64,000 nt of DNA, from NCBI RefSeq assembly GCF_003860565.1, contig NZ_CP034157.1, positions 682,001-746,000 of the forward strand, in the 5' to 3' direction. This stretch comes from Cloacibacterium normanense. GTDB lineage: Bacteria; Bacteroidota; Bacteroidia; Flavobacteriales; Weeksellaceae. The notes under the pieces were generated by a model that saw only the letters and a program-made list of their open reading frames with translations, ran no database searches and had not been told where the DNA came from. The position numbers and the translations under genes are program-made. The first letter of the stretch is position 1. Each line of letters opens with the position of its first letter. This document shows positions 6,000 to 6,413 of the stretch, in pieces.

Positions 6000-6199
6000 A
6001 TGAGGATGAATATAATAAGTTCATTTTATGAGTTCACTATAGACATTTAATTTTGTTTATAATGATTAACTTTACTTAGTTTTTCTTATCCAAAGGAAAT
6101 TAGTTAAAAAGAATAAAACTAAAAATTAAAATACGTAATTAAGCGTATTGTATATCATGGGGTTTGGGTGTACTTTTGAACTGTAGATTTAAATAAAGC

Positions 6200-6217
6200 A
6201 TTACACAAAAGTGTAAT
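6200..6217. promoter_or_regulatory. Palindromic operator upstream of the putative small RNA
   Basis: ATTACAC (6200-6206), AAAA, GTGTAAT (6211-6217) is a perfect 7-bp inverted repeat. Its last base is the first T of the TTG box of the next promoter, a position suited to repression or activation. The binding protein is unknown. Confidence 0.5.
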
Positions 6218-6247
6218 TGATTCATAAAATAAATCGTTTTAAATTTG
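6217..6247 (+). promoter_or_regulatory. Promoter of the putative small RNA
   Basis: TTG at 6217-6219 and TAAATTTG at 6240-6247 are 20 bases apart, matching the Bacteroidota consensus. No protein-coding frame follows; a hairpin and T-run end the unit at about 6338. The predicted start of transcription is about 6251. Confidence 0.65.
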
Positions 6248-6250
6248 CAC

Positions 6251-6338
6251 CGTAATAACCCAAAACACAAATGATGATAAATTTTCTACTGCAGTAAAAT
6301 TAAGGTTATTATGTAAACTGCAGTAGAAATTTTTTTTT
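6251..6338 (+). ncRNA. Putative small RNA with an H-type pseudoknot and intrinsic terminator
   Basis: Stem A pairs 6251-6260 (CGTAATAACC) with 6304-6313 (GGTTATTATG) over 10 positions with one G-U. Stem B pairs 6283-6295 (TTTCTACTGCAGT) with 6317-6329 over 13 positions. The four arms alternate A-B-A'-B', so the second arm of A lies in the loop of B: a pseudoknot. Nine T residues follow stem B directly. A consensus promoter sits at the predicted 5' end and no open frame of any size overlaps. I do not recognise the family. It could also be an attenuated leader, but the next gene has its own promoter. Confidence 0.55.
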
Positions 6339-6385
6339 ACAACAGGAAGTAGTAATTTTCTTCATATTTCGATTTTTAGACCAAA

Positions 6386-6413
6386 AAAAGGGTGCGTTTA
6401 CGCACTCTTTTTT
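6386..6413 (+). terminator. Second terminator upstream of the CNNM gene
   Basis: AAAAGGGTGCG (6386-6396), TTTA, CGCACTCTTTT (6401-6411) forms a stable stem with one G-T pair, followed by more T residues. It could be a back-up terminator for the upstream RNA. No gene lies between the two terminators. Confidence 0.75.

Follow-up and report, generated by a model that had tools for sequence, protein, structure and literature searches.

The Gac/Rsm systems (GacS/GacA with RsmX/Y/Z or CsrB/C) combine a LuxR-type regulator, an upstream palindrome and more than one small RNA. Here we describe a predicted small-RNA gene, sRNA1, which lies in an intergenic region between two genes of the sewage bacterium Cloacibacterium normanense, within a 64-kb window (the whole stretch of DNA that was analysed). 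The locus resembles Gac/Rsm in that a LuxR-type response regulator is found with a partner kinase and in that a predicted operator is common to the promoters of sRNA1 and a second unit, sRNA2. It differs in four respects: the regulator scores 92.9 bits against a GacA model with a cut-off of 280; no GGA is seen by eye in 6252-6338, the single copy at 6345-6347 falling in the read-through part; the Cloacibacterium regulator seems to control both its own expression and a small protein gene; and one of the Cloacibacterium RNA genes has a second promoter.

Several other small RNAs share some features with this locus. RydC of Salmonella and E. coli shares with sRNA1 a short length, an intrinsic terminator and a possible pseudoknot (PMC4337610), but the RydC pseudoknot is conserved and required for stability, whereas that of sRNA1 is confined to the four closest genomes. 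The E. coli RNAs RrA/RrB/RrF are described as lying behind rRNA operons (PMC8144298, in part), whereas the anti-start element of sRNA1 lies behind a small-RNA promoter. The Rfp RNAs of Flavobacterium psychrophilum, for example Rfp18, are like sRNA1 in being stand-alone and having TAnnTTTG promoters, a likeness drawn from their description only; the available part of that report mentions neither a regulator nor an operator for these RNAs (PMC9723704). FopS of Bacteroides offers a parallel in the Bacteroidota of related small RNAs present in several copies (PMC11697453, in part), but its model, RF04319, reaches 18.9 bits here, below its cut-off of 56. A search of the whole window with Rfam 15 returned only a tRNA at the gathering cut-off, and the best weak matches at sRNA1 (Termite-leu, 24.1 with a cut-off of 51; SraG, 24.2 with a cut-off of 50) point to no fitting family. 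Within the accessible portions of the literature on Cloacibacterium and on flavobacterial and Bacteroidetes small RNAs we found nothing on this locus, and the exact operator string gave no literature match.

Our main reading, to which we assign a probability of roughly 0.6, is that the locus is a Cloacibacterium small-RNA gene with two tandem promoters and two terminators, the first promoter (P1) being activated by a NarL-type regulator. It builds on observed conservation, operator sharing, promoter register, terminators and complementarities, and it predicts transcription, activation rather than repression, read-through and target contact.

Anatomy and conservation of the sRNA1 gene

A sequence-only reading of this DNA had described an operator-like palindrome, a promoter and a transcript with two sets of pairing arms, and a script together with reading of the letters recovered all of these motifs and pairings where they had been placed (Table 1). 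In F. psychrophilum the -7 box is given at -12 to -5 (PMC9723704, in part), and taking this flavobacterial placement for P1 sets the predicted start at ~6252 and yields an RNA of ~87 nt with a nine-T end. A promoter of its own and an intrinsic terminator, as used to recognise small-RNA genes, bound a conserved non-coding stretch here. The description of the region as free of open frames is correct for long frames and fails for a mini-frame at 6271-6297. Also overlooked were a second promoter upstream (6130-6178) and a conserved element with a second terminator downstream (6347-6413).

Table 1. Features of the sRNA1 locus and of units behind the same operator (window positions unless a locus is named).
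Feature	Position	Strand	Description
Second palindrome, AATACG-N8-CGTATT	6130-6149	.	Overlaps P2 TTG; probable operator for a regulator other than that of P1
Promoter P2	6148-6178	+	TTG 6148-6150, N20, TACTTTTG 6171-6178; start predicted ~6183
Palindrome, ATTACAC-AAAA-GTGTAAT	6200-6217	.	Overlaps P1 TTG; probable operator of NarL-type response regulator
Promoter P1	6217-6247	+	TTG 6217-6219, N20, TAAATTTG 6240-6247; start predicted ~6252
5' arm of loop complementarity	6251-6260	+	10 pairs with 6304-6313, one G-U
Predicted sRNA1	6252-6338	+	~87 nt from P1, ~156 nt from P2; inferred from promoter and terminator
Unpaired conserved motif, AAAACACAAATGATGA	6262-6277	+	Candidate seed; core AAACACAAAT common to sRNA2
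Mini-frame, MMINFLLQ*	6271-6297	+	Enters terminator stem; peptide differs among relatives
Terminator 1	6283-6338	+	Stem 6283-6295 / 6317-6329 (13 pairs), loop containing 3' pseudoknot arm 6304-6313, nine T 6330-6338
36-nt anti-start element, AAGTAGTAATTTTCTTCATATTTCGATTTTTAGACC	6347-6382	+	Predicted to be reached only via terminator 1 read-through
Terminator 2, GGGTGCG-TTTA-CGCACTC, T6	6390-6413	+	Folds in long transcript; found by simple scan on minus strand only
sRNA2 unit	L034:8350-8490	-	Directly behind kinase gene; operator, promoter, terminator ACGTCTTAGCAATAAGGCGTTTTTTT
24-aa frame, MRTIKLRFKKFLHRLLEYYSVKET	L040, genome 379683; L035:5520-5700	-	Behind same operator (one mismatch) and promoter

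A DNA search of 59 genomes located the sRNA1 unit at the same place in six of the seven Cloacibacterium genomes, G000-G005 (G000 being the genome of the window and G001-G006 the other genus members), with matches to G003, G004, G002, G001 and G005 at E values from 1.8e-66 to 6.7e-5; the remaining short matches, except for operator copies, were put aside. Identity between G000 and either G001 or G005 is 70-71% over the aligned part of the unit. The G002 alignment shows a degenerate P1 palindrome and a TTG changed to TAA, yet the RNA body is kept. G006 is without the RNA body and still has, in line, an operator-like palindrome, the promoter TATTTTTG, the 36-nt element and terminator 2. Outside the genus, inspection by eye of the 260 bases that precede the neighbouring transporter gene at 22 loci of other genera revealed no such unit. 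At E 1e-5 the plasmid and phage collections yielded no relative; two matches to Staphylococcus plasmids were weak (E values of 0.02 and 0.2) and judged to be chance. The sequence upstream of the unit in G001 and G005 is not the atpG end and the unit is nevertheless present, so sRNA1 is a gene of its own rather than an atpG tail. Conservation across the genus and the small regulon of the P1 palindrome support the proposal that this is a regulated, self-terminated and stand-alone RNA gene.

The pattern TTG-N19-21-TAnnTTTG occurs only 14 times on the two strands of the 64 kb, and two of these occurrences, P1 and P2, fall in the sRNA1 intergenic region, each with the centre of its palindrome 31.5 bp before its own -7 box. 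The P2 pattern, TTG-N20-TAnnTTTG, is kept in 6/6 loci with a spacer of exactly 20 bases, including G001 and G005 despite their different upstream sequence. Its palindrome, AATACG-N8-CGTATT, was found once in the window with 0.00 expected. Among 296 fetched loci, 28 have an exact copy: 27 of them overlap one another at the sRNA1 gene and come from G000, G001, G002, G003 and G005, and the other is L073. One arm of the palindrome is broken in G004.

The probable P1 operator and its candidate regulator

The core of the P1 palindrome, TTACAC-N4-GTGTAA, has three exact sites in the 2.76-Mb genome (one for a reversed control; 0.00 expected in shuffled windows). The two copies outside sRNA1 flank a gene cluster that encodes a NarL-type regulator with Response_reg and GerE (LuxR-type) domains, a lipoprotein, a membrane protein and a HisKA_3 kinase. 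One of these copies belongs to the regulator's own promoter and the other to the second small-RNA-like unit, sRNA2. Behind the sRNA2 operator come TTG-N20-TACTTTTG, a stretch of ~85 nt and an intrinsic terminator, and the unit with its terminator was identified in all seven genus genomes, with the TTG lost and the operator kept in G004 and G006. The 24-aa frame located behind the same operator has the same length in G000, G003, G004 and G006, has diverged in G005 and gave no Pfam match; the motif used did not pick it up in G002.

A combined operator and promoter pattern matched 15 times, in 8 of 320 family genomes, against one for a reversed-pattern control. Thirteen of these matches are in six of the seven genus genomes, and two of the other 313 family genomes are positive. 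In two Chryseobacterium genomes (L052:3915-3958 and L058:4298-4341) the palindrome-promoter pattern adjoins the gene of a 252/259-aa protein with a LuxR-like end (by eye), reading away.

We also examined regulator orthologues, defined as the 10 of 26 regulator-like matches in a protein search that had at least 57% identity. Eight of the 10 have an operator-like palindrome 62-69 bases before the regulator ATG, and these palindromes run into ATTG or CTTG; no palindrome was seen at the regulator's own promoter in G004 and G006. Two further orthologues also carry the operator and are not independent, since both were found via the operator pattern itself. The upstream regions of two paralogues, L081 and L083, contain no such palindrome. 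Outside the genus the operator letters shift to ACCC-N4-G(G/A)GT or similar at an unchanged position, and this form has nine matches in 8 of 320 genomes (control, one), of which two are regulator promoters (G203 and G224) and one is the G006 remnant. A Bacteroidetes MAG, found via the pattern, has the Cloacibacterium form of the operator before another NarL-type regulator. A relaxed search that allowed three mismatches returned 181 sites against 128 for the control and was discarded as too noisy.

The presence of the operator at the regulator's own promoter, at those of its orthologues and in the MAG thus makes the NarL-type regulator the best candidate, and it is likely the activator of P1 through the palindrome at 6200-6217. 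An operator centred ~43 bp before the start is typical of activators, and the P1 palindrome is centred ~43 bp before the predicted start. From this position, and from the loss of the TTG with retention of the operator in the sRNA2 units of G004 and G006, we infer activation rather than repression.

Terminator 1, its loop and the mini-frame

The region 6245-6340 folds with a z-score of -2.8, and one of 200 shuffles folds as well. Terminator 1 is not in the list of a simple terminator scan because its loop is longer than the scan permits. An alignment of the six sRNA1 copies shows all 13 stem pairs in G000, G002, G003 and G004, 11 in G005 and nine in G001. The stem shows one compensatory replacement, of G-C by A-U, and one substitution of A-U by G-U, each common to G001 and G005; being shared by these two genomes, the compensatory pair perhaps represents a single event. 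In the same alignment the pairing of the 5' end with the loop is 10/10 in G000, G002, G003 and G004, 4/10 in G001 and 3/10 in G005.

The sequence-only reading had described an H-type pseudoknot in this RNA, to be checked by covariation. Covariation supports the terminator stem weakly, through the one compensatory pair. Among the six aligned rows no convincing compensatory change was found in the 5'-end/loop pairing, where the sole doubly changed cell is in the G001 row, at a loop that is not confidently alignable. With full pairing in only four of six rows and no covariation, the pseudoknot is not supported as a defining feature; since the 10/10 pairing is restricted to four close genomes, it may be a property of one sub-lineage.

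A related proposal is a switch resembling the RydC pseudoknot, whereby base pairing between the 5' end and the terminator loop would govern how the RNA terminates or how stable it is. The pairing itself is stronger than chance in some genomes: a 10-pair run between the 5' end and the loop of G000 arises in 0.25% of 2000 shuffled loops (P 0.0025, for a spot preselected by the sequence-only reading), its duplex energy of -11.7 kcal/mol is equalled by 0.15% of 2000 shuffled loops, and G002 has 11 pairs (P 0.008 by run and 0.012 by energy). We nonetheless consider the switch unlikely, as the pairing is not retained in G001 and G005, in which shuffled sequences do as well as the best alternative runs (P 0.125 and 0.10), the sRNA2 terminator loop in G000 is too small for such pairing, and a 10-bp helix with three bases between its arms would be sterically tight. 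A pseudoknot switch is thus not supported. The gene itself looks real and is probably regulated, and its anatomy is fuller than first described.

The mini-frame raises a different possibility, in which AAACACAAATGATG would serve as a translation start and a ribosome covering the terminator stem would cause read-through into the 36-nt element. By eye, the ATG is retained in 6/6 sRNA1 copies with a frame running into the stem; the conserved motif AAACACAAAYG falls at the ATG of a frame of at least 58 aa in 7 of 25 other G000 sites; and the start score of the second mini-frame ATG ranks at the 36th percentile among sampled real starts and at the 92nd among all ATGs. Such translational attenuation is nevertheless very improbable: peptides and stops vary among the sRNA1 copies, an open frame of ~8 codons is common by chance, the sRNA2 units of G004 and G006 retain the motif without an ATG, ACACAAATG is present in 0/159 sampled starts, and the majority of other motif sites are not at gene starts.

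Candidate contacts of the predicted short and long RNAs

The motif core, AAACACAAAT, is present exactly or with one change in sRNA1 of six genomes and sRNA2 of seven. The longest word common to sRNA1 and sRNA2 has 11 letters in G000 (55 of 3000 shuffles have one as long) and 13 in G001 (2 of 3000); in G002 and G005, which have a change in one copy, it does not reach significance. Across the G000 genome AAACACAAAYG has 27 sites, compared with four for the reversed pattern, and a comparable excess is seen in the other six genomes.

Inspection of these sites revealed that many are next to intrinsic terminators. Twelve of the 25 G000 sites outside both RNA genes (L137-L159) adjoin a terminator, compared with 9 of 72 for permuted words; three have the sRNA1 orientation and nine read CRTTTGTGTTT directly before the hairpin. 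In G001 the proportion is 12 of 18 (L160-L176; five in the sRNA1 orientation and seven as the complement), the test having covered 18 of the 22 sites outside both RNA genes. The neighbour test was our own script, which did not recognise the hairpin at L137; this hairpin has no loop and is obvious to the eye. The idea that the motif mostly precedes gene starts was rejected, most sites having no such position and terminators being the commoner neighbour. Ten terminator-proximal G000 sites, nine from the script and L137 by eye, are complementary to sRNA1 over 12-16 bases and to sRNA2 over 11-18, with 11-base runs present by construction as the sites were chosen for an 11-letter complement. A trans-acting role, which the sequence-only reading had offered as one possibility, appears plausible from these complementarities, and we tentatively suggest that the short RNAs could make contact with the ends of messages, immediately ahead of terminators.

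A TAnnTTTG box is found shortly upstream of the motif at L144 and L152, and a terminator behind it at L144 and L147. Further small RNA genes are thus possible at these loci.

A competing explanation that merits serious, if again tentative, consideration is that AAACACAAAYG is a dispersed terminator-flanking repeat with no role as a seed, and that sRNA1 and sRNA2 function elsewhere, as a regulator decoy, through protein binding or through the downstream element only. The motif adjoins terminators in both orientations, and because copies in the sRNA1 orientation also precede terminators (3 of 25 in G000 and 5 of 18 in G001) it may be such a repeat; the excess of 27 over 4 sites in G000, with its counterparts in the other six genomes, and the many family genomes matched by short motif-like stretches fit this explanation as well. 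On the other hand, no part of the sRNA1 body is better preserved between G000 and G001/G005 than the motif, every one of the seven sRNA2 copies has the motif with no more than a single core change, and pairing at several terminator-side sites exceeds the 11 letters searched for, reaching 16 with sRNA1 and 18 with sRNA2.

The second candidate contact involves the 36-nt element, which is identical at 36/36 positions in 6/6 genomes. It is antisense to translation starts, clearly in three species and more weakly in two; in two species this is absent. Its pairing with the start of a DUF3570 gene comprises 20 pairs in a row in G001 (duplex energy -32.8) and 19 in G005 (-31.6), and its pairing with the start of the lipoprotein gene of the sensor cluster has a duplex energy of -30.0 in G002 and -24.0 in G000 and G003. 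The best duplex energy against 362 sampled starts is -22.0, these being ATG frames of at least 120 aa drawn from the window together with 20 stretches of 20 kb sampled in three genomes. DUF3570 has no match in G000 and G003 at E 1e-10, and the DUF3570 genes of G002, G004 and G006 pair with the element no better than shuffles. The lipoprotein starts of G004, G005 and G006 are not outstanding, and that of G001 ranks 30th of 362. For G000, G003, G004 and G006 the element's best non-self match is not a gene start, and we found no element target conserved across all species.

The element pairs with G000 starts at a mean energy of -10.8, compared with -8.0 for its reverse complement; part of the antisense signal is thus start-likeness, since the element outpairs its reverse complement with starts generally. 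The long RNA may also be rare, as terminator 1 looks strong in G000. Antisense action of the element on the starts of some species is, on this evidence, plausible without being favoured.

G001 and G005 have a cluster of thioredoxin-like, ApbE, DUF4266 and DUF3570 genes (L212 and L214). An intergenic stretch that is 84% like the element, with no gene start, is conserved between G000 (L213, G000:C1:1075995-1076038) and G006 (L215).

A further possibility is that the element acts on the minus strand, as the promoter and start of a tiny gene that reads back over sRNA1. This strand has TCTAAAAATCGAAATATGAAGAAAATT with TTTG just upstream, and its start score is at the 47th percentile of sampled real starts. 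A minus-strand gene seems quite unlikely, given that the minus strand of the region has no TTG-N19-21-TAnnTTTG, only about seven codons are alike while the remainder differs between species (by eye), and a terminator lies directly upstream on that strand.

Returning to the main reading, we propose that the NarL-type regulator binds 6200-6217 and turns on P1, and that the same regulator would control its own operon, sRNA2 and the 24-aa protein, with P2 adding a second signal through its separate operator. Most transcripts would end at terminator 1 and give an RNA of ~87 nt, in which the unpaired stretch AAAACACAAAUGAUGA, with its core common to sRNA2, is a candidate seed complementary to message ends before terminator hairpins. 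Read-through would add the 36-nt element, antisense to translation starts and covering a start codon. The likeliest target of the element would be the lipoprotein gene of the sensor operon in G000, G002 and G003, which would form a feedback loop, and the DUF3570 gene in G001 and G005.

A more ambitious version, which we regard as rather unlikely, is a two-input small-RNA gene with two targeting modules, one pairing with a terminator-side tag and the other being the anti-start element. P1 would be turned on by the sensor system and P2 by a second regulator, and the shared tag before many terminators would amount to a 3'-end code read by regulator-controlled RNAs. The released element would repress the lipoprotein gene (G000, G002 and G003) or the DUF3570 gene (G001 and G005), and would have switched targets between species with its own sequence unchanged. 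The element could have begun as a gene start copied in inverted orientation; its minus strand encodes MKKITTS, which resembles the G001/G005 target.

Flavobacterial small RNAs whose upstream regulator is named seem to have received little study, the literature that we found being the F. psychrophilum Rfp set and work in Bacteroides. Because the regulator, operator, two RNA genes, small protein and candidate contacts of Cloacibacterium can all be read from sequence, the predicted circuit from sensor to RNA would be directly testable.
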